Assembly (NCBI GenBank): GCA_903813345.2
Contig: CAIIXF020000003.1
Span: forward strand, 15,204,931 to 15,268,930
DNA length: 64,000 nt
Source: Owenia fusiformis
Taxonomy: Eukaryota > Annelida > Polychaeta > Sabellida > Oweniidae
Direction of reading: 5' to 3'
The notes beneath the pieces were generated by a model. It was not told the origin of the DNA. It was given only the letters and a program-made list of their open reading frames with translations, and did not search any database. Positions 177-63,229 of the stretch are shown here, one piece after another. How positions within the stretch are numbered: the stretch's first letter is position 1; the number at the start of each line of letters is the position of its first letter. The translations under genes were made by a program, and so were the position numbers.

Positions 177-22673
<22,497 letters not shown>

Positions 22674-28229: not shown

Positions 28230-28527
28230 AAATCTTAAAATTTAAAGTAATTTTAGTTTTTATTAGTAAACCATACTTACCTAATATTGCCACTATGTGC
28301 TAACATCCACCATTGAATCTATCTATGGCCAACTTCCCGGGAATTTCTTGAGCATATTACACTGTGCACCCCCGCACACATGCCCGGATATTCCTCAATT
28401 ATTCCGCTATAACATTTATGAAAATTCTGCTGTAAGCGGAGGAGGAGGGAGGGACATATTTGTAGTGGCAATATTAGGTAAGTATGGTTTACTAATAAAA
28501 ACTAAAATTACTTTAAATTTTAAGATT
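28230..28527. mobile_element. 298-bp palindromic element with 66-bp perfect inverted repeats
   Basis: 28230-28295 and 28462-28527 are exact reverse complements over 66 bases. The core contains one arm (28281-28407) of the 127-bp inverted repeat whose partner is at 31741-31867. The element abuts, and by two or three bases overlaps, the larger hairpin-rich element. Most likely a MITE or a solo end of the larger element. Confidence 0.75.
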
Positions 28528-31500
28528 TTACTACGCAAACCTTTACTACTTACACTAATATTGCCACTATGTGCTGAATCCCAGCCAAGTAGGCGGTGGG
28601 TTAAACAGCAGAAAGACCACGGGAATAGAATAAATTTGCAACAAACTACAAATTGATCAACCCTACAACTTTAGGTAACCCAACTTTACATCCTAAAGCC
28701 TTCGGGACTAAGGAACTTAATAACCTAGTACAAGTTCTGGGGTGAAATGTTCAAACTGTGTTAAACACTTAACAAAACTAATAATTCAGATTCACTATGC
28801 TAAAAAACTACTGAGTATTATTTCATATATGACTCAAATGGCCACTATGATAAAAAACGGACGTCTATCTATGGCGGGGTAATTCAACCACCAAAGGTCA
28901 ACAACGAACTTATACCACAGTACAAATTCTGACATTCTGATTGGCCATAAAGTTAAGAAAAATGTCAGAATATTTTCTAGCATAGTCTTACATGTCTTAG
29001 ACTTACATACATGACTTGGAAGTAATTTAAGCTGCCCATTGTGCCTGCTTTAAACATATCTTCCACTCGACTTCTAGAAACAAAGATTGAAAAAGTAGCT
29101 ACTGGTCTTGACATAACGTTTTCGACCCTTCTTTACTTTTCGACCCTTCTATACTTCTGTATACCTTGTACGTGTATAGATAACAGCTAATAATTGCTTG
29201 ATTAAAAGATCTAAAGGAATTATATTGAAGTTCCTTAAATGTATCTGGTTCTTCAAATCAATGCAAACTTTTCGTTCTCTCTTTTGAGTAAAGGTGAGAC
29301 GAAGTACTACATCGGTTACCATATGTTGGACTCTTTATGATCTTCGAACTATGAACACCAGTTGTTTAAATATTCTTGGGATTGTGATAACTCCGAAATC
29401 CCAATTACATCTTTAAATATTAAACATCTGGTATAAGTGCTTCTGCAAAGCATTGTAACCCTTAAAGGCTAAGCTATGTCTGAATGATAAACTACGTAGA
29501 GATTCATCATTTACTCATTGCCATTAGGATCACATGTTCAATCATTGAAGAACCCATGTACACCCTCCTTATTGATTAGATAACTACTTCCCCTCGTCAC
29601 AAAATAAAACCTTTGGAATAACACCCAAGGTTGTAGTGAAAAACACAGAATTTGATTTACAGTCTCTTGAACTGACTTACCAAGAGATCTGAAAAGTCAT
29701 CTTAGACTTCAATAATCAACTTTTGACTTCAAAAGCTGTCAAGGCTAAGAAAAATAAAGGAAACAAAACCTTTACTGAGGTGATGTTTTAGACATAACCT
29801 TACTTTAACTGGCAAACTGAAAGCCGCCAAATGTTTAAGTTTTCAAAAAACCTCGACTGTAATCTTAATTCCTCAAACAATTAACACTGAGTTGAATGCT
29901 TTATGAGAAGCATCTGGCGAAAGTAACCTATGTCAAAGATACTTCCGCCAACTCAACTCTGAACGTTAATATTCCAGGAATAGAGTCTAAATAGGAGTAT
30001 TCAGAAATGATTCTTGAGAATATAAAGATTTCAGTCTGAAACTCAGAAATGACAAGTTCATGACATTGTCATTTGTCAACGCATACAACACTTCTTATAT
30101 GAATAATTACTTGTGTTGTTCAGTTGTTGGCTAATATAGCTAGAAGGATAGTCTAGTGACTCAAAACTAAAACAATCTAAGTCACCTTCTACTTCTCTGT
30201 TGAAGAGACGGAATCAACCAATAACAGGATGATTGTGATCATCCATGAATCGTTTTCTTCAGCATATAGTAATAGCAACATCTACAATTACTTGGAGAAA
30301 ACAGGAACGCTCAATCAGAGACAATAACTTATAGGTCTCTGATTCGAAAAGATCTACTTGGAAGATGAGTAGGCTAAAAAGCTATATTGGTCTTTTCTGT
30401 GAAGAAGATGACGACTTCACAGTAGGCCTACTGTAAACCTTACAGTTACTTTTGTTAATCTTTAGCCTATCCTTTTTCTGAACAGTAGACAAACAACTCA
30501 GTCCAGAAATAACTGTACCAAATGCATAAGTGACAAACTTATCCTGCTGCGCATAACTAGTATAAAAACTAAATGGACTAAATAAACTAATTATTCTGTG
30601 GTCAGCATACGTGTTCTATGTATGCATACTACACCAGGTTTTACAACATACAATGTTATTTTCTAAATACATTTAAATGTATGTGAACCAAGTGTCTTCA
30701 TCTGAACATCATCGTGATCACGCTACTGTAAGATGAAGAAATATCTTCTTCATCTTAGGATCATACAGTCTATGCTCGACACATGTCAAATCCCGAAAGA
30801 CAAATTTACTGGTGTATTTATTTCTTCATGTTTACATAATTCATATCGGGACTGGAGTCCTTTTATAAACTATGCATAAAGAAAAGAGATGATAACTGCG
30901 TTCTAATGAACACGTATGTGTTTTCATTGTGGACTAACAACCAAAAAACACATGAGCAGTAAAGAAGCCATTTCGTCTGCGTTCTCCTGAACACATATGT
31001 GTTTTTATTGTGGACTAACAACCAAAAACACCTCAGCAGTAAAGAAGCCATCTTCAGATGTAGATGTAGATATTTTTCAAATTTCTCATATTCATCTGGA
31101 ACTGAACACGTTTATGTGATAAATACAGAGACGAAGAATTGAGAGCTATGTAAACTTGAACAGTTAATGTTTTCTTTATGGACTGACAACCAAAAGAAAG
31201 ACCTCAATGTAAGGCAGGGTACTGTAGGCATAAACACAGTATCTACCTTCTTCGGGCTTCCTTACTTTCTTATCTGGATTGAAAACCTCTCATGTAACAT
31301 AACACAGAGAAGAACATGTAATATTACGTTCTCTGTACATGATGTCTTCTGATGGTCTAATGACCCCTGTGAAATTGTCATTTATATATGACAAATTGTC
31401 TGGAAAAAGGTCAATTGACACTAGAGACCTTTTCCATATGCTTACTATAATCTCATGTCGGGACTGAAGACCGTATATGGAGCAAGCAAAGAAAAAACGA

Positions 31501-31898
31501 ACGAGGTAAGATCTTCGACATTTTTATATCAGATGTTTTCTTTGTGGACTAACAACCCAAAGAAAAAACCTTGAAAACTTGTCTTATAGTTCCATATGAT
31601 CTATTTTCCTCGTCCTCTTACTTTCATTTGTAACTGATGAACCTGTAGAACAACTAACTTCCTAGTTCCGTGTCCATAGTCACAAGTTATTTGTAAATTT
31701 ATTGCGATTCTAAAATTTCCGACTTTACAGAAGGAAAATGGCGGAATAATTGAGGAATATCCGGGCATGTGTGCGGGGGTGCACAGTGTAATATGCTCAA
31801 GAAATTCCCGGGAAGTTGGCCATAGATAGATTCAATGGTGGATGTTAGCACATAGTGGCAATATTAGTGTAAGTAGTAAAGGTTTGCGTAGTAAAATA
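28525..31898. mobile_element. 3.4-kb hairpin-packed non-coding element with inverted termini
   Basis: The left terminus at 28525-28573 (from TTACTACGCAAACC to CTATGTGCT) is matched in reverse at 31851-31898. The right end also carries 31741-31867, an exact 127-base reverse complement of 28281-28407. No frame longer than about 60 codons is credible. The interior holds many perfect stems of 8-12 bp with short loops. Examples are 28926-28936/28961-28971 (11 bp), 30313-30322/30335-30344 (10 bp), 30729-30757 (12-bp stem, 5-base loop), 31402-31412/31426-31435 (10 bp with a bulge) and multibranch folds at 29889-29959 and 30370-30469. A structured-RNA gene in a transposon-like frame and a foldback transposon are both possible; I cannot assign a superfamily. 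Confidence 0.7.
30916..31566 (+). other. Four stem-loops with a shared loop GGACTAACAACC
   Basis: Stem pairs are 30916-30924/30945-30953, 30999-31006/31024-31031, 31171-31177/31193-31199 and 31536-31544/31558-31566. The loop motif is GGACTAACAACC (one copy has GGACTGACAACC). The first two stems are built on GTGTTTT, the last two on TTTTCTTT, and each keeps perfect complementarity. Copies 1 and 2 lie in an ~85-bp direct duplication; copies 3 and 4 are further apart. The function is unknown. Confidence 0.65.
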
Positions 31899-34552: not shown

Positions 34553-34970
34553 ACATGCAAACATAATCCATGTGGCACAGATAATCTATAGTATCTCGCA
34601 TCTACATTTCTTTCTAAGTAGACCGTTGTTATAATATAGACTTGTATTTACATGCAAACATAATCCACGTGGCACAGATGATCTATAGTCTCTCGCATCT
34701 ACATTTCTTTTTAAGTAGAATGTTATTATAGTATAGACTTGTATTTACATGCAAACATAATCCACGTGGCACAGATAATCTATAGTATCTCGCATCTACA
34801 TTTCTTTCTAAGTAGACCGTTGTTATAATATAGACTTGTATTTACATGCAAACATAATCCACGTGGCACAGATGATCTATAGTCTCTCGCATCTACATTT
34901 CTTTTTAAGTAGAATGTTATTATAGTATAGACTTGTATTTACATGCAAACATAATCCAAGTGGCACAAGC
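34553..34970. repeat. 97-bp tandem array derived from the end of the last CEP76 exon
   Basis: Copies of 'ACATGCAAACATAATCCA' start at 34553, 34650, 34747, about 34844 and 34941. The last lies inside the real CEP76 exon. On the minus strand each unit encodes a version of the terminal 'CATWIMFAC' peptide, a stop region, and the first ~70 bases of 3' UTR. Two variants alternate, giving a 194-bp higher-order unit. Confidence 0.85.
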
Positions 34971-37900: not shown

Positions 37901-40900
37901 AGTACATGAGTAAAAAGAACTTTATCAATAGTAGGTGAAAGTCTATCATTTAGCATGTGATATCAGTATACTATATATTCAAAGTTCTGAAAATAACTGG
38001 CCTTGCCTTTAATGAATTAAAATTAATCTAAAGATAATTGTCAATTTTAATCATTAAAATAATCCTCAGAGGTCAATGACATTATGAAGTGCACTTAGTA
38101 ATTGGAATTTTTTTTTATACTTTAGTCATGCAGGCAGTTGGTTTCAATTGCACTTTGAAAAAGAACTACATTGCCATTTTGGCTTACCCACTTCAGAAAT
38201 AAAAAACAAACATGGAAATTGAAATTATTTTCAGTGATGTGCTCTTTACGAAGTGTATCTTCAAATGGCATGCTTCAAATGACTTATTTATCCAGCATTT
38301 CTGTTTTACATCCCATAGAGGACCAAAGAGACTCCAAGATTAAATGTGCAACTACCAGATTCCGCCTTTTATGAAGAATCACTTTAAAAAGCATGCAATT
38401 TGGAAAATAATACACAATATCCTTACTTTAAACATGCTGCAAATGCCTTCCTTGCATTTCTGTGAACGAACTGTACAGGGTATCCCTTAAATGTATGACC
38501 TTCTGGAACTGCTATTCGGATGGCTTGCTGGAACTCTTCATTTCCAGCAGATATACCTGGAAAGGCAGAAATGACATCACAGGGTGACCCCAAAAATATG
38601 TTAGTTCAATTATTAAAAATATTTGGTGTTTTTCATTATGTTACATCATAAATTGCATATGACGCCATCTATGAATGGTTCTCATTTTAAGTCTGAATAT
38701 TAGAAATATCCACTCTTCAAGCAAAGTTCTAGTGCCTGCCAGCAGAGAGGGGATACATGGTATCACACCATATTTGTCATTTATGATTTAACCAATCACA
38801 GAATGAGTAACTTGACAGTTGGATGATAAATGTAATGTATTCCTTGAATTCATCATATGATATATCAATACTAGCAATATGAAGCAAACAAAGTAAAGGA
38901 TAGTGTTTAGGTTTAAAAGTTTTTATTATCACATAATTATACATACATACAGAGCAAGAGCAATGATAGTGTAAGAACTCCATTCTAATTAATTCTTAAA
39001 AACAGTTGGCATATTTTTACTTTTAAGAATTTCTGGATTGAATCAATAAAATAATATATTGCAGCAGACCCATATTAAAAACAATCATGTATTGATTCGT
39101 TACTATTACACCACAACCTCAGTGTTTAGTTGATAATTATTCATAATGTGTTTGTAGAAATTATGAAATGAAATGAATTGAATAAATTATAACAAAGATA
39201 CAGAAGTGCATGATAAAAATCGATACCATGGCAATCTTCTCATTATTGGTTCTGTATTGATTCAATTTGAAATTCAATTTCTTTAAATACAAACGTGGGG
39301 CCTATTTTTCAAAATAGTGGCTTCTATACTTCATTCCCTTTTAAATATTGATACATTGGCAATTTGGCATACCTGTTATTCTCTCAGTCTCATATGAGGC
39401 TAGGGCTGGTGTAAGAAGGTAGCTGAGTTGATCGTCCCATGTAGTGTTCAATCCCTGATCCTATAAAGCAATAAACAGAATGTCATTATGCTCAGCTCTT
39501 AAATTACATGCAGTGATGTCTACATGTTCCTCTCAGCAGGGTACAATACCTTATTGTTGACATTTCCTTCTTCATATGTCAATAAATTTTCACCATTTTG
39601 ACAGGGTGCAAACAGATTTTTGACAGGGTGCAGTGCCTGATTGCTTTGGGAAGGTCACTGAATTGTGAATTGAAATTGGCATTTTCATGAAATGATGCTA
39701 CCAAGTACATGTGTTAATAAATTTTCATCATTTTGACAGGGCGCAAACATATTTTTGACAGGGTGCAGTGCCTGATTGCTTTGGGAAGGTCACTGAATTG
39801 TGAATTGAAATTGGCATTTTCATGAAATGATGCTACCAAGTACATGTGTTAATAAATTTTCATCATTTTGACAGGGCGCAAACATATTTTTGACAGGGTG
39901 CAGTGCCTGATTGCTTTGGGAAGGTCACTGAATTGTGAATTGAAATTGGCATTTTCATGAAATGATGCTACCAAGTACATGTGTTAATAAATTTTCATCA
40001 TTCTGACAGGGCGCAAACATATTTTTGACAGGGTGCAGTGCCTGATTGCTTTGGGAAGGTCACTGAATTGTGAATTGGAATTGGCATTTTCATGAAATGA
40101 TGCTACCAAGTACATGTGTTAATAAATTTTCATCATTCTGACAGGGCGCAAACATATTTTTGACAGGGTGCAGTGCCTGATTGCTTTGGGAAGGTCACTG
40201 AATTGTGAATTGATAATGGCATTTTCATGAAATGATGCTACCAAGTACATGTGTTAACATCAGTTGAAATCTGGTTGACATGAAATGCAAAACTAGAAAT
40301 TCAACTTAACCTTGAGCACAAATTCTCATACCTTTAAAAATTATGAAATAGGAAGGAAAGGTGTTGAACTTTCATAAAATGAAGGAAACAAGTACAGTTG
40401 CTATGAATCTAATATGTCAAAGTAAGGAGTAAATATGACTTATACTAAAATAATTTCCAAAAAGTTCAATTTCTCACTGCTCTATGTTGATCCACTAAGG
40501 CACGTAGCTCCACTTCCAAGTCATTGCTTAGTAGTGCTGAATCAAGGTTACTGGCACATAAGGGGGGCAATGTCGGCCATGTTGGAATATTCCCCATTCC
40601 GCAAACACTCCGTATTGCATCAGCTGACATAGCCTTCCAATGTGATTGGTTGTGGAGATCTAGCTGACAAGCACCTATAGTATCTGTCCCCTGGAAGAAA
40701 TAAATTTCATGTTAGATAAAATAAGTAAGAGAGAGAGAGTGGAATAAGCAAGGGGAAAAACAAACAGGCATGTAATTAACACTGGTGGTGCAAGGTGCAG
40801 GAAAAGCTAGAGTTTATGGAGAAATGGACTGGAATTCAACTAAAAAACAAGATTTTTTGATGTCTTTGAAATGAAAGATCAATCCAGAATTTAAACTGGG

Positions 40901-49300: not shown

Positions 49301-49794
49301 AACCTCAAAATTCAGGCGGGATAGTTAAATCTTCTTACAAATGATCATTTTTCATTAAATAATTGAAAACAGGACTTTGAAAAATGCTCCACTTATGAAG
49401 GTGTTCCACTTACATAGGTGTTCTACTTGTAATGTTACCACCACAAGTGGTGACATATTGTTAAGTAGGCTATAGTCTCTCTTTTGTGAATGGTGTTTGG
49501 CAGTTTGTGTTCTGTGGTTAGCATTCTGCAATCAGCATCAGTAACAAATGGCAGGTGATAACATTTTGCATTTGAATGCCTAATGTCTACTTGTGGAGGA
49601 GTTTCACTTAATAGGTTTTTCTATATATCTAAAAGTCATTCATGTTTCAGGTCAGTTACATGGAGAGAGTTTCAGTACAATGATTAAGCGTGTAAAGGAT
49701 CAGGGCCCAACAATCTTAGTTATAAGGGACACTGATGGCCACATATTTGGGGGCTTTGCCTCGGAGAGCTGGACCATGAAACCTCAATACTCAG
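46389..49794 (+). CDS. MEAK7: MEAK7/TLDC1-like TLDc-domain protein, first six coding exons
   Basis: Exons: 46389-46529, 47227-47493, 48329-48464, 48584-48735, 49055-49208 and 49651-49794, all GT/AG and phase-consistent, encoding about 331 residues of an expected ~450. The start 'MGTSQSKDPE' has Gly2 and Ser, a likely N-myristoylation signal, as in human MEAK7 ('MGNSRSR'). 'FKKLSG..AFSLEQLQ' matches the human N-terminal region. The TLDc domain opens with 'NQWSLLYTSQLHGESFS' and contains Gly317-Gly318 in 'HIFGGFASESW'. Human MEAK7 is a lysosome-associated activator of an alternative mTOR pathway. The rest of the TLDc domain should follow in the next exon, but after exon 6 the sequence runs into tandem duplication units to the window end. 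The gene is head-to-head with CEP76. Confidence 0.9.
46530..47226. other. TLDc gene intron 1
   Basis: AT-rich with no recognisable element. Open frames here (for example 46895-47077) lack any family signal. Confidence 0.5.
47523..47691. mobile_element. hAT-like MITE, copy 2
   Basis: Ends CAGTGGTTTCACTAG and CTAGTGAAATCCCTG pair over 15 bases with two mismatches. The internal sequence is collinear with 44000-44177. It lies 29 bases downstream of TLDc exon 2. Confidence 0.75.
48076..48279. mobile_element. ~204-bp MITE with AGTGAT.CCCCAG termini
   Basis: The left end AGTGATCTCCCCAGCATT and the right end, reversed AGTGATAGCCCCAGGATT, match at 15 of 18 bases. The interior repeats 'TTGCACCCA' and 'ATCTGAAAAT' words. 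A related left end may be present near 3850. Confidence 0.6.
49432..49585 (+). repeat. Dispersed ~150-bp repeat, copy 3
   Basis: Begins TTACCACCACAAGTGGTGA (hairpin), continues 'CATATTGTTA' and ends 'AACAAATGGCAGGTGATAAC' then 'TTTTGCAT', as in 2622-2755 and 6842-6975. It sits just before TLDc exon 6. Confidence 0.6.
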
Positions 49795-50439
49795 GTGATT
49801 ATATAATCTAGAATATCCATCTTGTTTTCTCTTCACTGATTGTTTGATTTTTCTCATTTAAAAGAGAGCTTCGAATACACTCTTTGAAGTACTGTAGAAC
49901 TAGTTTTTGATCTAGCCTTACCAGAATCCATCTACTTAACCCTTAAACAGTTAGGCTATAGATCTGCCCCTCCCCCTTTTGATCCACAGGAGAGTGTATA
50001 AGGTGTCATTGGAAAGGATAATCAAAAGACAAATTATGGAAAAAGTTTTAGAAATACCTTGGGGGGACTGACCCCCCCCCCCCCCCTTAACCATTTAAGG
50101 GTTATTCAGAATTGCAGTCACAGAATGTAACTGTTATACCTTAATAAGTAGCATATCTTTGTTTCATGTTTAAACTCCCATGTATTGACATGGCAGCTAC
50201 TTTTGGGATTGTTTAGATCTTATAAGCATCAAAATTGTGTATTTATTTTTCCTTCACAGAGGCTAGATTTACCCTTTGCATTCGTTCGACTTCTTAAAAG
50301 AGAGCTTCGTCTTCACTCTTACAGTTTACATGAAAATTACCGAGCCATTCGGAGTTCATTTTTTTTTGAAATACTGACCGCTTTCTAGATATGGTCATTT
50401 CCTCAGATAGCATCCCATAGTTAATGAGCATGAATTTAG

Positions 50440-50600
50440 CATGGGTTCCTTCCAGCTCGCTGATTGGTTGAGAAAAGATCAGTGTTGTATGACCTGGGCT
50501 ATCACGGGCATAGGTCATGAGGGCGGGGCCACTAAACTGTAATATAGTCTATACTAGGCAGAGGGTAGTTTATAACTAGACTCTGCACGCAGGGTACTAG
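50440..50600. promoter_or_regulatory. Promoter-like segment, present in all three units
   Basis: Contains ATTGGTT (50463, CCAAT box on the other strand), GGGCGGGGCC (50521-50530, GC box) and the pair TGACCT/AGGTCA (50490-50495 and 50512-50517), nuclear-receptor half-sites in everted orientation with a 16-base spacer. Unit 2 has lost the GC box (GGGTGGGCC). No gene starts obviously next to it: it lies about 400 bases beyond the 3' end of the ANKH-like gene. The role is therefore uncertain. Confidence 0.3.
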
Positions 50601-51011
50601 CTTTTACTGTTAGGTTCTTGATCTTACATTATACCATACATTTTACCCAGTCACAAAATAACATTTGCAATGGTGTTGAGATTTTCTTTTGCACTGTACA
50701 AGGTGGAATATTTGATGAATAAAACAATTCAACCTTTTATCAGCTTTATTTTCTTATACATGTATATGTAGTATTATTTACAAGATTTTACATGACACCT
50801 TTGTGGGTGTATAGTATACAATCTAAAGACATATGTTGTTTGAATAGAAGGTATATGATAATCAGCTGATCTATGATAAGCACTTACTAAGACTAACTAG
50901 TCTGAAAAAGCTTCTTCAAAGAATCTCTAAAATAACTTTTAAAGTCATTAAAAGTAGTAAACAAATGATAAAAGCATATTTAAAAACGTTGCCAATTTCT
51001 AGTTGTTATGG

Positions 51012-52397
51012 TTACAAATAGCAATCCTTTTGATGCGATTGAGACTTTCTTAAATACTTCAAGTAAAGGTATGAGAAAAGTATGCTAGCAGTAGATGATT
51101 GAGCAGTAAACAAAGCCATCACTGAAGACAGTAAAACATTAAATCCAAGATGATCTAAAGCAAATGGTAGGCAACCCATTATAATGACTTGACAAGCAGA
51201 ACTCACTATTGACATCTTCGTGTCTTTCTTATGCAGTAAAATTCCAAGGGAAAACAAAGCAAATGTTTGAACAATCGGCCAGAATGTAAACAACTTAAAG
51301 GGATAGTATACTCCAATGAAATTTTCTTCAGAAATATGAAATAAATATAAGAATATAACCCTTGTAATGGGAGTTATCCAACATATTGAAATTGAAATCA
51401 AAAATGAAACAATTGCAATAATGGAGGTGCAGATAACTAGTTCATGGTCAAAATGTAATGATGAGTTACTCCCAGATGCAAGATATGCAGATACCATTGT
51501 TGCGATACTGACCAATGTCCTTCGCAATGAATAAAATGCTGCGTGGAGGACATGAATGTTCGCCAGTGCCATACTTCGCATAGATATAGATGGAGTTAGT
51601 TGTGCAACTGTAAAGCTGAGAATTATAGTTTCACATCTTTCGATCAATTCTTGTAGTCCTAGGGGTAGTGTTACTTTAATCATGTTGTGGTATGTCAGTT
51701 TCTTTGTGCTTTCATCTGGTAGCTCATTGATCAAGAATCTTTTATATCCTATATAGCTAAAGAGAAGGTAAACCAATGCTGACACATATGCTGATATTAC
51801 AGGTATCAAGATTGGTCTTCTCGTTATTAAGGGTGTAGCCATGAGAGAGAAAATACACCCTAATTTTGCAATGAACCTCAACAACTCAGCGAGGAGACAG
51901 AAAGTGGTGTGTTTTTTCATTAATAATAATCCATGGATTGCAGATCCAGTATTTAGGATCACGGACAGCAAACAGAGGGATGCTATGCCAATCTGAATTT
52001 CTTCAAGTTCTTGATTAGTAATAAGAAATAGCACTTGGATGATGTATCCCACTCGTGTAAGACCAATCACAAGAAAGATCCCTGCTGTTATGGTGCTACT
52101 GCAAATCATAAAGATCAGTCCTTTCTTTAAGTCCACCTTTGAGTTAACCAGTATAATAAATCCTTGGCTTGCCTGGCTTGGTGATACGTATGCCCGAAGA
52201 ATGCTTGCAATGCTGAGTGTCAATGATACAACAACCAATGCTTCATTTATATCTCGGGTGAATGTTTGGCTCAAACTATCAACGATTTTAGCGATGGCTG
52301 GTTCCATATTTGCAATGGCAGTAGGTAAAAAAATTTGAAAGATAAACAGACATTTTCTCCAGTCAGTATCAGCCACATCATAAGCGTTATTAGTCAT
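51012..52397 (-). CDS. ANKH-like multipass transporter, single exon, copy 1
   Basis: The first ATG is at 52397, giving 461 residues ('MTNNAYDVADTDWRKCLF'). The frame stays open 5' of it for about 39 codons but without an ATG, and TTTTAATTTTAG just upstream could be a splice acceptor, so a 5' exon is possible. Ten or more hydrophobic segments run through the protein. It resembles the progressive ankylosis (ANKH) family: 'GFIILVNSKVDLKKG' against human 'LVFVNSKRDRTKA', and 'RRPILIPVISAYVSALV' against 'REPLLIPILSLYMGALV'. ANKH is a MATE-fold relative that moves ATP, pyrophosphate or citrate out of cells. The similarity is to the family, not one-to-one, so the substrate is open. The gene lies antisense inside the TLDc gene. 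Confidence 0.75.
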   Translation of the reverse strand: MTNNAYDVADTDWRKCLFIFQIFLPTAIANMEPAIAKIVDSLSQTFTRDINEALVVVSLTLSIASILRAYVSPSQASQGFIILVNSKVDLKKGLIFMICSSTITAGIFLVIGLTRVGYIIQVLFLITNQELEEIQIGIASLCLLSVILNTGSAIHGLLLMKKHTTFCLLAELLRFIAKLGCIFSLMATPLITRRPILIPVISAYVSALVYLLFSYIGYKRFLINELPDESTKKLTYHNMIKVTLPLGLQELIERCETIILSFTVAQLTPSISMRSMALANIHVLHAAFYSLRRTLVSIATMVSAYLASGSNSSLHFDHELVICTSIIAIVSFLISISICWITPITRVIFLYLFHISEENFIGVYYPFKLFTFWPIVQTFALFSLGILLHKKDTKMSIVSSACQVIIMGCLPFALDHLGFNVLLSSVMALFTAQSSTASILFSYLYLKYLRKSQSHQKDCYL

Positions 52398-53701
52398 CTC
52401 TGTGAAGTTTTTCTTACTAAAATTAAAATGTAGATTAAATTTTGTAGCGTCAGTCAACTGCCCAACTTTTTTTGTCGAATGAGAAGCAATAAATGAGTTC
52501 TGTTTGAGTTATAAATATTCATTTGAATTATTGACCATAGATTGTTGATCTTATGCATCTTATCAATAAGTCACCAAAAAATTCTAAAGACCTTCTGTTC
52601 AGTTTTTTTATGTCTTTATAAATTGTGTCAATTTTGTATTTAAGCAAAATCAACATAGATTTTACTATTGAAAGGTTCTATGTCCACTTGTACCATATAT
52701 GAGAAAACGGAGAACAAACATTGGGGTTCTTTGCAACTTTGTAAAATAACAAAAATAAAAAGTTGATAAAAATCGTTATAGCCAAGAGGAATTATTCTTG
52801 ATCAGAATATTACTCAATTAGATGAAGCTATATTTAAAGAAGCAAGCCACAATATTCCGAAGGGGAACCTTTTATCTATCCAGATCACTTGATGTATCAT
52901 TTTAACATTTTTACAAAATTATGAAACCAAAGGTTGGTGGCATAATTTGTGTAGAATCCAGGACAAGTGTGCCTGCAAAGGATGACACATCTTGTAATGC
53001 TCATAAAGGTGCATCTAATTCAGCTTGTAATCTGAAACTTCCTTTGGAGCTGCTCCATGGAGTATAGTGTTACTATGCAAAAGGACAAAATGGTGACCTT
53101 ACCCTGCCCAAATGGAGCGCCCGAGTCTCTAGGGAATTGATTTTACTTTCTACAGGTAGCAATACTATACCTGGGAATAAAGTTGTTCTTAAGCCTTAGC
53201 AAAGTAACCTCCTTTGTTTACATTTGCCAAAACATAAAAAATTTGAAAATTTGTCATAACTTTTTAAAACCTCGATAGTCGGAACCGATTTTACTTATTG
53301 GGTATTTTAGTTGTACACAAACTGAGCTTGTCAGTGGTGTTTGTAATGTTTTCAAATTAGAGATTTCCCACATTGAAGACATTCAATCCAAGACCATGTA
53401 TTACCACAGAATGGATCATATTGTGAGATAAATACTCAATGAATGAAATAACACACTTTTGTATTTTTTATGTTATGTAAATAAAATATTAATTAGTGTG
53501 AGGCACACATTCAGCCAAAACTGAGGAATGTGATATATGTCACAAGATGTTTCGTTTGAAAAGCCAAGTGAAACAACACAAAGCCACTATATATAAGGTA
53601 TACACATGTAACATCTGTCAGTAATCATTTTTGCAATATGAAAACACAAAGACATATAAATGTAATAAATATATATACAGTGTATGTATATAATATATTA
53701 A
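52398..53701. other. Upstream region of ANKH-like copy 1
   Basis: Conserved with the region upstream of copy 2 (58328-59700) at roughly the same identity as the gene. On the minus strand a TATTTATAA box lies about 120 bases before the ATG. The unit 2 version carries about 90 extra bases around 59016-59107. Confidence 0.5.
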
Positions 53702-54256
53702 TATTAAACAAATACTGGATGATCAGGAGCTGGATATGGCAGAATACCTATTCGAGAAAAAATATTGGGCGAGGCGGCAGCCGAGCCCAATATTTTTTCG
53801 AGGAGTACAGGCTTAAACTGTCGTTTAGTTGACATTATTTTGACATTTATTTATTTTTTCTTTCAAAACTCAGACGACTTCCGGCCAGTTTATTCGCTAC
53901 ACTGGACGAAAATATTTGCCCCGGGAATTTAATTTCTATTTATTCGAGACGTTCTTGCAGAATTATATGTAACTTTTGAATGATAAGGGTAATTGTGATT
54001 GATTAAGTGCATTTTTTTCTTATATTTTCCGCCAGTTTCAGATGTAAGCTTTAAGTAGTACTCCAGTTATTAAGAAATAAAACTCTGAAGTGGGAATGTT
54101 GCAAAAACATTGAAAAAAATATCCGACCCTTTTTCTCGAAAGGGTCAGATATTAAAAAAATATCCGGCAGTTTTCAGAAAAGAGCAGAGTATTGCCAAAT
54201 TACAAGCAACTAAGAACCAATCAGATTTGAGTATTTTAATGAGGTGCATAATAAAA
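53702..54256. mobile_element. Unit-1-specific insertion with a 15-bp hairpin
   Basis: This ~555-base segment is absent at the matching place in unit 2. Near its left end is a perfect 15-bp stem (53756-53770/53785-53799) with the loop GAGGCGGCAGCCGA. A second local inverted pair, GACCCTTTTTCTCG/CGAAAGGGTC, occurs around 54124-54150. The boundaries are approximate. Confidence 0.55.
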
Positions 54257-54650
54257 ATATATATGTCTCTGGATAACATGATTTTTAAGTGTCTGTATGG
54301 AAGCAGTGATATAATCCCCGACCCCGAATCCAAAACTTTAAAGCATAACACACTCCACTTTGCTTAGATGCGTCCCTGGATCTATTTTATGAGTTATCAT
54401 CTACTGTTTTTTCTGAGTCGAAGACTTCATTTATGATACTGATCATACATATTCACTCGCAGCCCACCAAATGTATGCAACTTGTGATTTGCTCTTGTTT
54501 GTAACTTTGAACATACTGTTTTAAAAAAAATCATCTTGACCGAGCACTTACTTCTTTCACTCGTGCACTCCTAAATGATATACATTGATATTTATAAATG
54601 AGCATATGCACTAGCTAGTGAATGCTCCCCCCCCCCCCGTCCCTCGCCCA

Positions 54651-55503
54651 GAAAAAAAATTTGGGCCCAAATATTTTGTAGGGCCTCAATCAGTGAGCCT
54701 TTTTGGATATTACCAAATTATAATAAATGGGCCTTAAAGGAGCACGTGGGTTATCGCAAACAATTTCAGAAGGTTATATCTTGGATTATGACTATTTTCT
54801 GACAATGAAGACAAGTTTATCTTTTAGATCAATTCATTATCTCAAAGAAAATTATGCACAGTAATAATAAATTCAAACAAACTCGGAGATATTTAACTAT
54901 CAATTAACCCATCAACACACTTTCTTTCAAAGATGTTGACCCCATTTTCACCAAAAATGCAATCATTTTTTACAATGTTTAATGCATTACTATTCTTTAT
55001 TTTGATGTATCAAATAGTTCTTGAAAGAAAAACTTAATTGCATTAAGATAAGTGTTCGCCATGTTATTTCTCCATTGAAAAATCTCATGCTAGCCATTGG
55101 TTTCAGTTCATTTTGGTCATCCAAATTGAATATCTTTAAAGTCCCCGGAGCAATCAAATTTCCCTTTTAGGAAATCGAACATGTCTCAAATCACATTCTA
55201 ATTATGCATTCAACAATATAATAATAGGTTGCATTTTTGGTGAACATTATGTCAACATTTTTGAAAAAGCATGTTGATTGGTCCATTGCCCCTTCAATAT
55301 CACTTAGGTCTGATTAACTAAATTATCATTACATATACTTTTCTTGAAGATAATGAATGGATCTAAAAGATACACCCATGTTCATGATCAGAAAATATTC
55401 ATAATTCAAGTTACAATCGTTTGAAATTGTTTGCGATAACTTACATGCTCCTTTTCAAAAAATGGGCCAAACATTTTGATTCAAGGGCCCAATTATTTTC
55501 TCC
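54651..55503. mobile_element. ~850-bp imperfect palindrome, unit 1
   Basis: The left arm runs from GAAAAAAAATTTGGGCCC through 'GTTATCGCAAACAATTTCA' and 'TCTTTTAGATC' to 'TTCACCAAAAATGCAA'. The right arm repeats these in reverse, ending GGGCCCAATTATTTTC near 55500. The arms meet around 55090 and are clearly diverged from each other, so the palindrome is older than the tandem duplication that copied it. Confidence 0.8.
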
Positions 55504-55607
55504 AAAATTTGAACATATTTCACGTATTTCCTTTGGGATGAACCCTGTGCTCTTATATAAATACTCATGTGTGTCATGCTCCTCAGATGCACTGTCTGAA
55601 TCAGAAT

Positions 55608-55741
55608 TGGAGAGAGTTTCAGTACAATGATTAAGCGTGTAAAGGATCAGGGCCCAACAATCTTAGTTATAAGGGACACGGATGGCCACATATTTGGGGG
55701 CTTTGCCTCGGAGAGCTGGACCATGAAACCTCAATACTCAG
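55608..55741 (+). pseudogene. Partial copy of TLDc exon 6 (unit 2)
   Basis: Matches 49661-49794 almost exactly, including the donor GTGATT, but lacks the first 10 bases of the exon and the acceptor. Upstream sequence is the end of duplication unit 1. A candidate acceptor CTCCTCAG lies 22 bases upstream, but joining exon 5 to it would break the reading frame. Confidence 0.85.
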
Positions 55742-56941
55742 GTGATTATATAATCTAGAATATCTGTCTTGTTTTCTGTTCACCGATTTTTTTATTGTTT
55801 TCCTTTAAAAGAGAGCTTCAAATACACTCTTTGAAGTAGAACTAGTTCTTGATCTAGCCTTACCCAATCAGAACCATCTACTTAACCCTTATACAGTTAG
55901 GGTATAGATCTGCCCCCTCCACCTTTTGATCCACAGGAGAGTGTATTAGGTATCATTGGAAAGGATAATCAAAAGACAAATTATGGAAAAAGTTTTAGAA
56001 ATACCTTGGGGGACTGACCCCCCCCCCCCCCCCCTAACCATTTAAGGGTTATTCAGAATTGCAGTCACAGAATTTAACTGTTATACCTTAATAACTAGCA
56101 TATCTTTGTTTCATGTTTAAACTCCCATGTATTGACATGGCAGCTACTTTTGGGATTGTTTAGATCTTATAAGCATCACAATTCAGGCTAGATTTACCCT
56201 TTGCATTCGTTGGACTTCTTAAAAGAGAGCTTCGTCTTCACTCTTACAGTTTACATGAAAATTACCGAGCCATTCGGAGTTAATTTTTTTGAAATACTGA
56301 CCGCTTTCTAGATATGGTCATTTCCTCAAATAGCATCCCATAGTTAATGAGCATGCATTTAGCATGGGTTCCTTCCAGCTCGCTGATTGGTTGAGAAAAG
56401 ATCAGTGTTGTATGACCTGGGCTATCACGGGCATAGGTCATGAGGGTGGGCCACTAAACTGTAATATAGTCTATACTAGGCAGAGGGTAGTTTATAACTA
56501 GACCCTGCACGCAGGGCAGGGTACTAGCTTTTACTGTTAGGTTATTATATTACATTACATTATACCATACATTTTACCCAGTCACAAAATAACATTTGCA
56601 ATGGTGTTGAGATTTTCTTTTGCACTGTACAAGGTGGAATATTTGATGAATAAAACAATTCAACCTTTTATCAGCTTTATTTTGTTATACATGTATATGT
56701 AGTATTATTTACAAGATTTTACATGACACCTTTGTGGGTGTATAGTATACAATCTAAAGACATATGTTGTTTGAATAGAAGGTATATGATAATCAGCTGA
56801 TCTATGATAAGCACTTACTAAGACTAACTAGTCTAAAAAAGCTTATCAAAGAATCTCTAAAATAACTTTTAAAGTCATTAAAAGTCGTAAACAAATGATA
56901 AAAGCATATTTAAAAACGTTGCCAATTTCTAGTTGTTATGG

Positions 56942-58327
56942 TTACAAATAGCAATCCTTTTGATGCGATTGAGACTTTCTTAAATACTTCAAGTAAAGGT
57001 ATGAGAAAAGTATGCTAGCAGTAGATGATTGAGCAGTAAACAAAGCCATCACTGAAGACAGTAAAACATTAAATCCAAGATGATCTAAAGCAAATGGTAG
57101 GCAACCCATTATAATGACTTGGCAAGCGGAACTCACTATTGACATCTTAGTGTCTTTCTTATGCAGTAAAATTCCAAGGGAAAACAAAGCAAATGTTTGT
57201 ATAATTGGCCAGAATGTATACAACTTAAAGGGATAGTATACTGCAATGAAATTTTCTTCGGAAATGTGAAATAAATATAAGAATATAACCCTTGTAATGG
57301 GAGTTATCCAACATATTGAAATTGAAATCAAAAATGAAACAATTGCAATAATAGAGGTGCAGATAACTAGTTCATGGTCAAAATGTAATGATGAGTTACT
57401 CCCAGATGCAAGGTATGCGGATACCATTGTTGCGATACTGACTAATGTCCTTCGCAATGAATAAAATGCTGCGTGGAGGACATGAATGTTCGCCAGTGCC
57501 ATACTTCGCATAGATATAGATGGAGTTAGTTGTGCAACTGTAAAGCTGAGAATAATAGTTTCACATCTTTCGATCAATTCTTGTAGTCCTAGGGGTAGTG
57601 TTACTTTAATCATGTTGTGGTATGTCAGTTTCTTTGTGCTTTCATCTGGTAGCTCATTGATCAAGAATATTTTATATCCTATATAGCTAAAGAGAAGGTA
57701 AACCAATGCTGACACATATGCTGATATTACAGGTATCAAGATTGGTCTTCTAGTTATTAAGGGTGTAGCCATGAGAGAGAAAATACACCCTAATTTTGCA
57801 ATGAACCTCAACAACTCAGCGAGGAGACAGAAAGTGGTGTGTTTTTTCATTAATAATAATCCATGGATTGCAGATCCAGTATTTAGGATCACGGACAGCA
57901 AACAGAGGGATGCTATGCCAATCTGAATTTCTTCAAGTTCTTGATTAGTAATAAGAAATAGCACTTGGATGATGTATCCCACTCGTGTAAGACCAATCAC
58001 AAGAAAGATCCCTGCTGTGATGGTGCTACTGCAAATCATAAAGATCAGTCCTTTCTTTAAGTCCACCTTTGAGTTAACCAGTATAATAAATCCTTGGCTT
58101 GCCTGGCTTGGTGATACGTATGCCCGAAGAATGCTTGCAATGCTGAGTGTCAATGATACAACAACCAATGCTTCATTTATATCTCGGGTGAATGTTTGGC
58201 TCAAACTATCAACGATTTTAGCGATGGCTGGTTCCATATTTGCAATGGCAGTAGGTAAAAAAATTTGAAAGATAAACAGACATTTTCTCCAGTCAGTATC
58301 AGCCACATCATAAGCGCTATTAGTCAT
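56942..58327 (-). CDS. ANKH-like multipass transporter, single exon, copy 2
   Basis: 461 residues from the ATG at 58327. It is intact and differs from copy 1 at six positions over the longer open frame: a K/E and an N/S change near the N-terminus, then R/I, G/A, F/Y and V/I. By eye I count about 20 base differences in 1.45 kb, most of them silent, and most in the 3' third of the gene (57121-57420). Family, orientation and context are as for copy 1. The predominance of silent changes suggests both copies remain under constraint. A third copy is expected just beyond 64000. Confidence 0.75.
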   Translation of the reverse strand: MTNSAYDVADTDWRKCLFIFQIFLPTAIANMEPAIAKIVDSLSQTFTRDINEALVVVSLTLSIASILRAYVSPSQASQGFIILVNSKVDLKKGLIFMICSSTITAGIFLVIGLTRVGYIIQVLFLITNQELEEIQIGIASLCLLSVILNTGSAIHGLLLMKKHTTFCLLAELLRFIAKLGCIFSLMATPLITRRPILIPVISAYVSALVYLLFSYIGYKIFLINELPDESTKKLTYHNMIKVTLPLGLQELIERCETIILSFTVAQLTPSISMRSMALANIHVLHAAFYSLRRTLVSIATMVSAYLASGSNSSLHFDHELVICTSIIAIVSFLISISICWITPITRVIFLYLFHISEENFIAVYYPFKLYTFWPIIQTFALFSLGILLHKKDTKMSIVSSACQVIIMGCLPFALDHLGFNVLLSSVMALFTAQSSTASILFSYLYLKYLRKSQSHQKDCYL

Positions 58328-59700
58328 CTCTGTGAAGTTTTCCTTACTAAAATTAAAATGTAGATTAAATTTTGTAGCGTCAGTCAACTGCCCAACTTTT
58401 TTTGTCGAATGAGAAGCAATAAATGAGTTCTGTTTGAGTTATAAATATTCATTTGAATTATTGACCATAGATTGTTGATCTTATGCATCTTATCAATAAG
58501 TTACCCAAAAATTCTAAAGACCTTCTGTTCAGTTTTTTTATGTCTTTATAAATTGTGTCAATTTTGTATTTAAGCAAAATCAACATAGATTTTACTATTG
58601 AAAGGTTCTATGTCCACTTGTACCATATTTGAGAAAACAGAGAACAAACATTGGGGTTCTTTGCAACTTTGTAAAATAACAAAAATAAAAAGTTGATAAA
58701 AATCTTTATAGCCAAGAGGAATTATTCTTGATCAAAATATTACTCAATTAGATGAAGCTATATTTAAAGAAGCAAGCCACAATATTCCGAAGGGGAACCT
58801 TTTATCTATCCAGATCACATGATGTATCATTTTAACATTTTTACAAAATTATGAAACAAAAGGTGGGTGGCATAATTTGTGTAGAATCCAGGACAAGTGT
58901 GCCTGCAAAGGATGACACATCTTGTAATGCTCATAAAGGTGCATCTAATTCAGCTTGTAATCTGAAACTTCCTTTGGAGCTGCTCCATGGAGTATAGTTT
59001 TACTATGCAAAAGGACAATTCGGGAGACACACCGTCCATTTATGACCTAATCCGCGGTAATGAGCTTGTTGACATTACCAGGGAATATAACTGATCATTT
59101 CAGTAAAAATGGTGACCTTACCCTGCCCAAATGGAGCGCCCGAGTCTCTAGGGAATTGATTTTACTTTCTACAGGTAGCAATACTATACCTGGGAATAAA
59201 GTTGTTCTTAAGCCTTAGCAAAGTAACCTCCTTTGTTTACATTTGCCAAAACATAAAAAATTAGAAAATTTGTCATAACTTTTTAAAACCTCAATAATCG
59301 GAACCGATTTTACTTGTCATTTTAGGTATTGGGTATTTTAGTTGTACACAAACTGAGCTTGTCAGTGGTGTTTGTAATGTCTTCAAATTAGAGATTTCCC
59401 ACATTGAAGACATTCAATCCAAGAACATGTATTACCACGGAATGGATCGTATTGTGAGATAAATACTCAATGAATGAAATAACACACTTTTGTATTTTTT
59501 ATGTTATGTAAATAAAATATTAATTAGTGTGAGGCACATTCAGCCAAAACTGAGGAATGTGATATATGTCACAAGATGTTTCGTTTGAAAAGCCAAGTGA
59601 AACAACACAAAGCCACTATAGATAAGGTATACACATGTAACATCTGTCAGTAATCATTTTTGCAATATGAAAACACAAAGACATATAAATGTAATAAATA
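58328..59700. other. Upstream region of ANKH-like copy 2
   Basis: Collinear with 52398-53700. It includes a ~90-base stretch (about 59016-59107) without counterpart in unit 1; whether this is an insertion here or a deletion there is open. Confidence 0.5.
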
Positions 59701-60260
59701 CAGAATATCACATCATTTTGAGTGATATCATTTTTATCGCCGAGTTGATAGCAAATATCAACACGAGTGAGCGAAGCGAATGAGTGTTGATATTTGATAT
59801 CTACGAGGCGATAAATTGATATCACGAGAAATTATGTGATATTGGGTTTATCCCATGATTACAATCACCTTGTGATGTTCTGATCGAATTTCCAGGACAT
59901 TGGCAGACAATATAAACTAGAAATTAGAATATCAATTAAACACTTTATTTTAACGATTAAAAGTAAATACCATGATATAGTTCGTCATAAATACCATTTT
60001 TAATCGTTAGTTAGCAGCCTCCTAATCAAATTATATACACAATCGTAATTCAATACACCAATGAAACTTAAAGAGAATAAGTTAATGGACCTATTTTCTC
60101 AAAAATGAATAAATTATCTGACGTAATTTCCAACAATATTGTGGCGCGAAATGCAAATGTGATATCACACGGATATGCGTGAGATAAACGCTCGCTCGTG
60201 CAGATATCATATCCATTCGTGGATAAAAATCATATCACTCATAAATCATAGGATATCCTC
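59701..60260. mobile_element. 560-bp MITE inserted in unit 2
   Basis: Absent at the matching site in unit 1, where AATAAATA joins TATATACAG directly. The ends pair imperfectly over about 40 bases ('GAGTGATATCATTTTTATC' against reversed 'GAGTGATATGATTTTTATC'). A perfect 13-bp stem (59752-59764/59784-59796) has the loop GAGTGAGCGAAGCGAATGA. No coding capacity. Confidence 0.8.
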
Positions 60261-60325
60261 TATATACAGTGTATGTATATAATATATAAATATAAATATA
60301 TATGTCTCTGGATAACATGATTTTT

Positions 60326-61303
60326 GGCTCACACAGTGAGCCTATGGGATTGACCAGTGGTCCGTCCGTCCGTCTGTCCGCCCGTCCGTTGGTCCGTCCG
60401 TCAACATTGGCCGCACAAATGAAAACTGCTATTCGGATTGAGTCCTATCCACATTCATTTTATGCATATCCATAATGCCTATTTGACCTATCATCGCCAT
60501 TTCCCAAGTTCGCCCGGTTTCCGAGAAATTGCGGATTTTGACGTCAAAAAGTCAAATTTTCTGTAAATACTAGACACTTTGTTGAAGTAGAACTTTCAAA
60601 TACCTTTTAGTAGTTTGTGTATATGCAACTTATGTCCTCTGAAGATTTCAAAGCTCTTGGAATTACGGTTTTTGGTGTTTACTCTATAAAATTTGAAAAA
60701 AGTAGGACTTAGTTATTTTCAGGAAACTTTCTCATATGTAAAGTCAATGGCAGCTTTTGTGATTGACAAGATTCTTAAAGTTTGCCTTATACTTGATCAT
60801 TTCCTGCAATAAATTACATCATTAATAGATTTAAGCATTCCCTACATATTTCTCAATATATGTCAGCATCAAATTTTTACCGTTTTTGAGATATTTGACG
60901 CCAAAAAGCAGTAAAAATAAGTTATTTTTCAACTTGCTTCAATTTGACCAAATTTTTTTTTGAAAATCATCTACAAGTTACCAGGAGTTCAAATCTGACA
61001 TTAGTTTTAGGATTTGACCTTTACTTGACCTTCAGTGACCTTCGAAAGGTCAAAAAACTTGATTTTTCAAATTGATTTTTGGATGTATATTTTGGTCAGC
61101 TTAATCACAAAAGACCTTACTGAGCTCTGAATAAGTAAAATTTTCAAGGTCAAATGTCATCAAATAGGTCACACAACTATGCTATCTAAGTTTGTCAAAG
61201 TTCGAGACTACATATCCAAATCAATATTTTTGTTTGAAAGTCAGGATATAAATTCCTCTGAAGGTTCCAAACTGTGTGAGCATAGGACCGTGGGTCCTTC
61301 ATT
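60326..61303. mobile_element. 978-bp non-autonomous element inserted in unit 2
   Basis: Absent in unit 1, where the flanks join near 54291. Begins with a 7-bp hairpin (GGCTCAC/GTGAGCC), then a CCGTCCGT-rich tract at 60361-60400. GCTCACACAGT near the left end is inverted as ACTGTGTGAGC near the right end (61271-61281). The layout of hairpin plus CCGT tract is the same as in 13292-14719, although the bodies differ. No open frame. Confidence 0.75.
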
Positions 61304-61668
61304 AGTGTCTGTATGGAAGCAGTGATATAATCCCCGACCCCGAATCCAAAACTTTAAAGCATAACACACTCCACTTTGCTTAGATGCGTCCCTGGATCTA
61401 TTTTATGAGTTATCATCTACTGTTTTTTCTGAGTCGAAGCCTTCATTTATAACACTGATCATACCTATATTCACTCGCAGCCCACCAAATGTATGCAACT
61501 TGTGATTTGCTCTTGTTTGTAACTTTGAACATACTGAATTAAAAAAAATCATCTTGACCAGCACTTACTTCTTTCACTCGTGCACTCCTAAATGATATAC
61601 ATTGATATTTATAAATGAGCATATGCACTAGCTAGTGAATGCTCCCCCCCCCCCCCGTCCCTCGCCCA

Positions 61669-62511
61669 GAAAAAAAATTTGGGCCCAAATATTTTGTAGG
61701 GCCTCAATCAGTGAGCCTTTTTGGATATTACCAAATTATAATAAATGGGAGCACGTGGGTTATCGCAAACAATTTCAGAAGGTTATATCTTGGATTATGA
61801 CTATTTTCTGACAATGAAGACAAGTTTATCTTTTAGATCAATTCATTATCTCAAAGAAAATTATGCACAGTAATAATAAATTCAAACAAACTCGGAGATA
61901 TTTAACTATCAATTAAACCATCAACACACTTTTTTTCAAAGATGTTGACCCCATTTTCACCAAAAATGCAATCATTTTTTACAATGTTTAATGCATTACT
62001 ATTTTTTATTTTGATGTATCAAATAGTTCTTGAAAGAAAAACTTAATTGCATTAAGATAAGTGTTCGCCATGTTATTTCTCCATTGAAAAATCTCTGCTA
62101 GCCATTGGTTTCAGTTCATTTTGGTCATCCAAATTGAATATCTTTAAAGTCCCTGGAGCAATCAAATTTCCCTCTTAGGAAATCGAACATGTCTCAAATC
62201 ACATTCTAATTATGCATTCAACAATATAATAATAGGTTGCATTTTTGGTGAACATTATGTCAACATTTTTGAAAAAGCATGTTGATTGGTCCATTGCCCC
62301 TTCAATATCACTTAGGTCTGATTAACTAAATTATCATTATATATACTTTTCTTGAAGATAATGAATGGATCTAAAAGATACACCCATGTTCATGATCAGA
62401 AAATATTCATAATTCAAGTTACAATCGTTTGAAATTGTTTGCGATAACCTACATGCTCCTTTTCAAAAAATGGGCCAAAAATTTTGATTCAAGGGCCCAA
62501 TTATTTTCTCC
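61669..62511. mobile_element. ~850-bp imperfect palindrome, unit 2
   Basis: Near-identical copy of 54651-55503 brought by the tandem duplication. It has a small deletion next to 'GAGCACGTGGG' and a few substitutions. Confidence 0.8.
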
Positions 62512-62615
62512 AAAATTTGAACATATTTCACATATTTCCTTTGGGATGAACCCTGTGCTCTTATACAAATACTCATGTGTGTCATGCTCCTCAGATGCAC
62601 TGTCTGAATCAGAAT

Positions 62616-62746
62616 TGGAGAGAGTTTCAGTACAATGATTAAGCGTGTAAAGGATCAGGGCCCAATCTTAGTCATAAGGGACACTGATGGCAACATATTT
62701 GGGGGCTTTGCCTCGGAGAGCTGGACCATGAAACCTCAATACTCAG
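62616..62746 (+). pseudogene. Partial copy of TLDc exon 6 (unit 3)
   Basis: Same 5'-truncated exon as at 55608, with an in-frame 3-base deletion (loss of one Thr after GGCCCA) and a His-to-Asn change. The donor is intact, the acceptor missing. Confidence 0.8.
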
Positions 62747-62895
62747 GTGATTATATAATCTAGAATATCTGTCTTGTTTTCTGTTCACCGATTTTTTGAT
62801 TGTTTTCCTTTAAAAGAGAGCTTCAAATACACTCTTTGAAGTAGAACTAGTTCTTGATCTAGCCTTACCCAATCAGAACCATCTACTTAACCCTT

Positions 62896-63229
62896 TTTTT
62901 TCACTCATTTATTTCATATATACATACTACAGCATTCTATAAAAAAAATTGTGTTTACAATTGACTGGTTAAAGGTTGTCGCCAACATTAGTTATATATT
63001 TCTTTTTCTCAAGAAGTGATACAAAAAGCTTATTCTTATGATGCTTTATCTACAAAACAAGTTCTTATGATCTTTTTTATCTACCAAGTTTACTTCTTTT
63101 TTTTTGATCAAGTATTATTTATGGATGTTGTGGTTGTATTTCATATGTAGTTGTATGCATCTATGGAATAACCTCATTCATACATCCCTCATTCATACAC
63201 TCATTCACTCATTCATTCACTCATTCAAT
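62896..63229 (-). mobile_element. Retroposon insertion in unit 3 with 16-bp target duplication
   Basis: CATCTACTTAACCCTT is duplicated at 62880-62895 and 63230-63245, and occurs once, uninterrupted, in units 1 and 2. The insert starts with a T-run (poly-A on the minus strand) and ends in a (TCATTCAC)n-type tract. There is no long frame. The target-site length and the tail fit a SINE or a short 5'-truncated LINE. Confidence 0.8.

Follow-up and report, generated by a model that had tools for sequence, protein, structure and literature searches.

The window analysed here is a 64,000-nucleotide stretch of the Owenia fusiformis genome (contig CAIIXF020000003.1, positions 15,204,931 to 15,268,930 of the forward strand), and it holds an internally deleted copy of a non-autonomous DIRS1-like retrotransposon whose sense strand, judging by the frames of its coding relative L036, is the minus strand (Table 1). 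An earlier note on this DNA, made from the letters alone, had described a transposon-like unit framed by exact 127-base reverse complements and lacking any credible protein frame. The two arms are indeed exact, extending to 147 nt when 94% identity is allowed in a repeat search of the window, and the interior is as poor in frames as claimed: the longest one opening with ATG, GTG or TTG is 119 amino acids (aa) in the window copy, and stop-to-stop frames inside the element reach at most 123 aa in the two full copies examined (L010 and L013). Two additional perfect inverted repeats of 66 and 51 bp, overlooked in the earlier note, identify the element; they join the tips to two internal complementary regions (ICRs) that overlap by 4 bases at 28525–28528, the circle junction.

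Table 1. Features of the DIRS1-like element, in window coordinates; fractions refer to the seven copies used for single-hairpin display.
Feature	Position	Strand	Remarks
Whole element	28233–31896	-	Non-autonomous DIRS1-like retrotransposon of a ~5.8-kb family, with an internal deletion; borders common to 19 copies, map to full-length copies
Left (5') inverted terminal repeat	31741–31896	-	31741–31867 is the perfect 127-bp arm
Right (3') inverted terminal repeat	28281–28407	-	Perfect 127-bp arm
Right tip and right extension	28230–28295	-	66-bp perfect complement of the right ICR
Right ICR	28463–28528	-	66-bp perfect complement of right tip and extension
Left ICR	28525–28575	-	51-bp perfect complement of the left tip, 31847–31897
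Decayed tail of putative tyrosine recombinase gene	28920–29108	-	Aligns with the last part of the recombinase frame of L036; window coordinates hand-converted from L014
11-bp hairpin	28926–28971	-	Lies at the end of the decayed recombinase; matched in position by an L036 hairpin whose 8-base arm core (ATTCTGAC/GTCAGAAT) is identical
8-bp hairpin	29376–29404	.	Found in 7/7 copies
Breakpoint of ~2.1-kb internal deletion in window copy	29573–29580		By comparison with full copies
9-bp hairpin	30047–30074	.	Identical in 7/7 copies
10-bp hairpin	30313–30344	.	Perfect in 6/7 copies
Hairpin common with L036	30397–30422	-	Island in otherwise poorly alignable sequence; L036 element positions 580–607
12-bp hairpin, loop 5	30729–30757	.	
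Repeated hairpin, copy 1	30918–30950	.	Loop GTGGACTAACAACC
Repeated hairpin, copy 2	30999–31031	.	
Repeated hairpin, copy 3	31167–31199	.	Loop ATGGACTGACAACC; other stem sequence
8-bp hairpin	31304–31336	.	Stem intact in 7/7 copies, loop variable
8-bp hairpin	31405–31433	.	Stem intact in 7/7 copies, loop variable
Repeated hairpin, copy 4	31533–31565	.	Perfect 9-bp stem 31536–31566

DIRS1-like elements are described in PMC3266345 as having inverted terminal repeats and a pair of ICRs that share ~3 bp, the circle junction, and as lacking a target-site duplication. The window element resembles DIRS-1 of Dictyostelium and its relatives, as outlined there and in parts of PMC5633606, in its inverted terminal repeats, its two ICRs near the 3' end, its circle junction, its right extension and the absence of a target-site duplication (none seen by eye around 19 copies, where the triplet beside the right tip is AAA in five, AAT in four, GAT in four, AAC in three, AAG in two and GAA in one), and it is also homologous to L036. 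It differs in encoding nothing, neither the gag nor the reverse transcriptase (RT) nor the recombinase gene that an autonomous element of this class has of its own, and in having an interior of hairpin-dense non-coding sequence. The mobility implied by a “transposon-like unit” is therefore upheld, but as that of a DIRS-type retrotransposon and not of a DNA transposon. Long perfect inverted repeats without genes would also suit a foldback element or a DNA transposon akin to miniature inverted-repeat transposable elements; this reading fits poorly with the missing target-site duplication, is refuted both by the ICRs with their circle junction and by the ends shared with the RT- and recombinase-bearing L036, and has next to no probability in our estimate. 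A Helitron-like reading (a TC... end, no target-site duplication) was abandoned given the ICRs and L036.

Searches of the assembly (498 Mb, 525 contigs) placed the family at 28 loci, 26 with a left-end probe (27 minus the related L036) and two more with a right-end probe, a lower bound in which truncated copies (L033 and L034, for example) are counted. Full copies measure ~5.8 kb. Nineteen copies were aligned end to end, and this alignment underlies the identity, covariation, stem-change and arm-retention counts given below; the nine loci outside it are L019 (left end missing from the retrieved sequence), L029/L030, L031/L032, L033, L034 and L035 (split, truncated or rearranged), and those at C7:11.24 Mb, C11:34.38 Mb and C2:6.94 Mb (sequence not retrieved). 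The aligned copies form groups ~99% alike inside, with the deepest split at 96% and the others at ~97.5–98.5%, and this high identity within and between groups indicates that the family spread recently. A 491-base interior probe matched this family alone, in 30 match rows over 26 loci with none below 88%, so that the genome search with this probe found no autonomous partner with an identical interior. None of the extra DNA in the long copies (L017–L019, L029–L032) matched the L036 proteins. Just one stop-to-stop frame in it is 120 aa or longer, the 555-aa frame at L030:1-1665; this matches integrase zinc-binding, rve and RNase H domains and thus belongs to an element of the long terminal repeat (LTR) type nested in a non-coding DIRS copy.

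Among the many DIRS elements with open RT frames in this genome, L036 is the relative that the left-end probe itself retrieved: a ~5.9-kb locus with open frames of 576, 757 and 990 aa, laid out as gag-like, RT/RNase H and recombinase frames with a long overlap. In window orientation, its first 660 bases are 76% and its last 280 bases 69% identical to the ends of the window element, and the 51-base left tip of the latter matches the left ICR of L036 at 92%. The 757-aa frame matches the reverse transcriptase family RVT_1 (2.5e-21), with RNase H and Dam-like methyltransferase matches below the cut-off. The end of the 990-aa frame is taken to be a tyrosine recombinase: a profile built from the recombinase tails of seven families in this genome matches Cre (1.3e-6), the tails of four of the seven match Phage_integrase, and R183, H313, R316, W339 and Y349, which we take to be the catalytic positions, are invariant among all seven. 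Over an overlap of ~2 kb, neither the RT nor the recombinase frame is interrupted in L036 (3139–8148), L037, L041, L042, L038 and L039; L040 does not have this long overlap. What the non-coding copies still share with L036 is ~500 bases of 3' end, ~280 bases of 5' end and the decayed recombinase tail, which tblastn picks up in three full copies (E 0.001 in two, 0.05 in one). The most likely source suggested by these remnants is thus a coding DIRS that lost its genes in place while staying near full length. The family, then, has DIRS-type ends and no genes, descends from coding DIRS of the L036 kind and has spread recently in several subfamilies.

The interior of the window element is rich in short hairpins. 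Counting perfect stems of at least 8 bp with loops of up to 20 bases in 28540–31740, we found 10, as against a mean of 1.35 and a maximum of 4 in 40 dinucleotide shuffles; the earlier note, which had counted at least eight where it expected about two, was right about this excess. The individual stems that it placed at 28926/28961, 29376, 30313, 30729–30757 and 31304 all exist at the lengths it gave, as does its nested fold, in which a 9-bp stem (30370–30378/30461–30469) encloses two hairpins; its stem of ~10 bp at 31402/31426 is real too, but with a perfect core of only 8 bp. Equal-length flanks held 5 such stems on the left (2.2 in shuffles) and 4 on the right (1.7), and two 10-kb pieces of the window 8 (5.5) and 7 (3.7), the second of which included 3 stems of at least 10 bp (0.2 in shuffles), so single long stems are not exclusive to the element. 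A sliding-window folding comparison, which the note had proposed, also came out as it expected: the element folds below its shuffles and more strongly than its surroundings (mean z in 120-nt windows, two strands: -1.14/-1.08 in the element, -0.56/-0.35 in the left flank, -0.08/-0.06 in the right flank).

Hairpin density was further measured as the number of inverted 7-mers 3–60 bases apart, observed versus dinucleotide shuffles. Two non-coding subfamilies reached 95 vs. 30.1 (L014) and 90 vs. 26.7 (L028), i.e., 3.2- and 3.4-fold with z of 8–9, and the inverted-repeat excess of the non-coding element is confined to spacings below 60. Could these hairpins reflect chance in AT-rich DNA, or an inherited base composition? 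Eleven other pieces of the window gave 0.97–1.99 times their shuffles, and the fact that some of them reach 1.5–2-fold, together with the three long stems in one 10-kb piece, would fit such an origin. Yet the shuffles, which keep dinucleotides, fall far short of the counts in both subfamilies, and direct repeats at equal spacings are only 1.4–1.5-fold in excess there, which makes chance or composition very improbable.

The same excess of short local hairpins is present in coding relatives of the same subclade: 74 vs. 28.8 in L036 (2.6–2.8-fold), 59 vs. 26.0 in L037 (2.2–2.3-fold), 78 vs. 28.3 in L041 (2.8-fold) and 80 vs. 31.3 in L042 (2.6-fold), with 3.07-fold in L043, a broken relative of L036. 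More distant DIRS gave 22 vs. 22.5 (L038, 0.98-fold), 31 vs. 19.7 (L039, 1.57-fold) and 40 vs. 29.0 (L040, 1.38-fold). Codon-preserving shuffles (synonymous permutation) left all 12 of the L036, L037, L041 and L042 frames above the shuffled mean, and for 10 of them no more than 5 of 200 shuffles came up to the count observed; the two weaker frames were the gag-like (8/200 as high) and RT (15/200) frames of L041, and the excess holds also where two frames overlap. By this measure L038 showed no excess, and L039 and L040 were mixed (gag-like frame of L039, 2/200). Two integrase-encoding elements stood at 1.65-fold (L045) and 1.46-fold (L046) against dinucleotide shuffles, and neither they nor an ANKH-like host frame exceeded codon-preserving shuffles (26, 70 and 71 of 100 as high). 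An RT tree of seven families puts the four hairpin-dense ones on one side of a branch whose support, 85/94, is not strong. Overall, hairpin density is a trait of a DIRS subclade that includes L036, L037, L041 and L042.

If the stems matter, few of the changes that replicating lineages share should fall within them, and changes private to one copy, acquired after insertion, should show no such avoidance. Across the 19 aligned copies, 3 shared changes fell inside stems of at least 8 bp and 210 outside, compared to 21 and 276 for private changes (Fisher p = 0.0025), and none of 1000 shifted-stem sets had as few shared changes. Setting aside the deepest branch, whose count can be biased by the reference, left 1 shared change inside and 103 outside (p = 0.021; 11 of 1000 shifted sets as low). 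Stems of 6, 7 and 9 bp pointed in the same direction (p = 0.035, 0.029 and 0.006; 0.052, 0.106 and 0.070 without the deepest branch). In 23 of 24 comparisons, which are not independent of one another, the two arms of a hairpin were retained more often than control arms were (6 with p < 0.05). One stem, ACGGAAA/TTTCCGT, is retained in 17 of the 18 copies holding its region, with a loop that varies by subfamily. In L014, a private change at element position ~2790–2820 (window orientation) replaced loop bases by a second copy of a stem arm, yielding an alternative perfect stem, possibly through a copying slip.

The interior might instead be a specific functional non-coding RNA, of the host or of the element, with a defined fold, e.g., a small-RNA precursor, as the wording of the earlier note suggests. 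Across 30918–31565, four hairpins share a loop near GTGGACTAACAACC but have stems of two kinds (GTGTTTT/AAAACAC and TTTCTTT/AAAGAAA), as though the loop served as a conserved signal, and this four-fold repetition would be consistent with such an RNA. So would one of two hairpins shared with L036, both chosen by eye: at 30397–30422 the loop is unchanged between the two elements, and the stem differs by a compensatory A-T to C-G double change and a G-C to G-T change. However, no Rfam family was matched at its gathering score (two matches lay far below), the perfect stems reach just 8–12 bp, the interior probe detects nothing beyond this family, and the global fold, as detailed below, lacks a clear excess of covariation. 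We consider a dedicated functional RNA very improbable.

Our preferred reading, to which we assign a probability of roughly three in four, is that of a young non-autonomous DIRS1-like retrotransposon whose hairpin-dense interior was kept or gained because structuredness aids an RNA or single-stranded DNA intermediate. In the DIRS model, as laid out in parts of PMC5633606 and PMC3266345, transcription from the terminal repeats is followed by completion and circularisation of the complementary DNA (cDNA) via the ICRs and by recombinase-mediated insertion without duplication, although the former source itself describes this model as not fully proven. By analogy, RNA of the gene-less element would be made from its terminal repeats, copied into cDNA, circularised through the ICRs and inserted by the RT and tyrosine recombinase of coding DIRS elements, i.e., by trans-mobilisation. 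The interior, once free of coding, would have kept or gained its dense series of hairpins, whose structuredness would aid the RNA or the single-stranded cDNA, most likely in compaction or packaging with the gag-like protein of the subclade; compaction, packaging or cDNA synthesis are the roles that we infer for them. More tentatively, it is possible, if short of probable, that this DIRS subclade keeps its entire genome hairpin-dense, genes included, and has spawned a full-length gene-less satellite of which only the ends and the foldability are heritable. The hairpins would then act as dispersed recognition or compaction signals for the gag-like protein or the single-stranded cDNA stage, and the satellite would be a better-folded passenger.

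Several results weigh against the preferred reading. Trans-mobilisation and transcription of the element are proposals from its sequence, and the recombinase tail of L036 alone did not convincingly match any recombinase family or solved structure. The broken close L036 relative L044 has inverted 7-mers at just 1.61 times its shuffles, several stem thresholds were used in the stem-change test with p values uncorrected for their number, and folding is as strong on one strand of the element as on the other. A test of G-T versus A-C mismatches pointed to one strand in the non-coding element and weakly the opposite way in the coding relatives. Global-fold covariation, measured in 12 of the 19 aligned copies in four versions, yielded 0, 0, 4 and 3 compensated pairs against ~1.3, 0.9, 2.4 and 2.0 in equal numbers of control pairs, and changes at paired sites were only slightly fewer (0.027–0.029 vs. 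0.031–0.035). Between coding families compared at 61–62% identity, changed stem pairs still paired at 0.23–0.30 (controls 0.25–0.27), the exception being L036 stems of at least 8 bp in L037 (0.41 vs. 0.25, 8 hairpins). Unchanged pairs of L036 stems of at least 6 bp were somewhat better retained in L041 and L042 (0.46–0.47 vs. 0.39), L037 stems were no better retained in L041 than controls, and no loop motif common to the families was seen in the comparison across families. What appears to be kept, given near-control covariation, poor positional conservation and an inconsistent strand test, is structuredness and not one particular fold, and individual hairpins turn over from one family to the next. 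Of the earlier note's suggestion that selection favours a folded RNA or single-stranded DNA, this leaves a weaker form (density above shuffles, coding relatives alike, long stems spared), but not a single conserved fold, for which covariation among copies had been its own proposed check; RNA and DNA are not distinguished.

Turnover of this kind is also what one would expect if the hairpins were a by-product of copying. If the RT of this subclade switches template within single-stranded cDNA (snap-back), it would create local inverted repeats and re-match imperfect arms at every cycle, with no use for the hairpins being needed. Such an enzyme property could yield much of the observed picture: an excess limited in the non-coding element to short spacings, equal folding of both strands, density as a trait of a subclade, and, through re-matching of arms in the cDNA, stems that stay intact in lineages still replicating but degrade in dead copies. 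On the other hand, snap-back within genes must keep frames open, and yet the excess over codon-preserving shuffles persists where two frames overlap; the few shared changes within stems are not paired; and the single local case inspected, the TTTCCGTT hairpin of L014, arose by a duplication private to that copy, with the original stem retained in other copies, although it might itself be a copying slip. We regard snap-back copying as unlikely, if far from negligible.

Gene-less derivatives are well known for LTR retrotransposons, long interspersed nuclear elements and DNA transposons. The DIRS1-like class is likewise already known, but a phrase search of openly licensed papers turned up no full-length gene-less DIRS and no other non-autonomous tyrosine recombinase element; Repbase was not searched, and such elements may have been named earlier. 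In the main text of PMC3266345 the terms “non-autonomous,” “nonautonomous” and “secondary structure” do not occur, and the sections of the literature examined do not describe hairpin density in DIRS. Large retrotransposon derivatives (LARDs, e.g., Sukkula), in the parts of PMC7215508 considered here, are LTR elements described from grasses, whereas the window element ends in DIRS-type inverted repeats and shares its hairpin density with its coding relatives. Held against the long, conserved and structured interior of LARDs, its copies are 96–98% alike between subfamilies, with dense structure and spared stems and without clear global covariation.

The genomes of RNA viruses can show genome-scale ordered RNA structure, in which local structure is pervasive. 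The window element is similar in having local structure genome-wide without fixed positions, and differs in that the carriers are a retrotransposon subclade and its gene-less derivative, and that the acting strand may be either RNA or single-stranded DNA. If hairpin density is selected, this family separates structure from coding, the comparison of gene-less and coding elements would test the role of structure in a circular, recombinase-inserted retrotransposon, and pervasive genome structure would extend from RNA viruses to mobile DNA.

Elsewhere in the window, 49661–64000 is a tandem or segmental array, in which 49661–53088 repeats at 55608–59018 (96.7%) and 54288–55890 at 61304–62895 (97.8%). 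Two of its units carry an uninterrupted 481-aa frame, and the one scanned matches Pfam ANKH (1.2e-10). A tandem array at 39573–40257 consists of 5.1 copies of a 135-bp unit (98% matches), and others lie at 4394–4823 (87-bp unit), 12309–12894 (100-bp), 14822–15426 (~113-bp) and 34553–34967 (97-bp).

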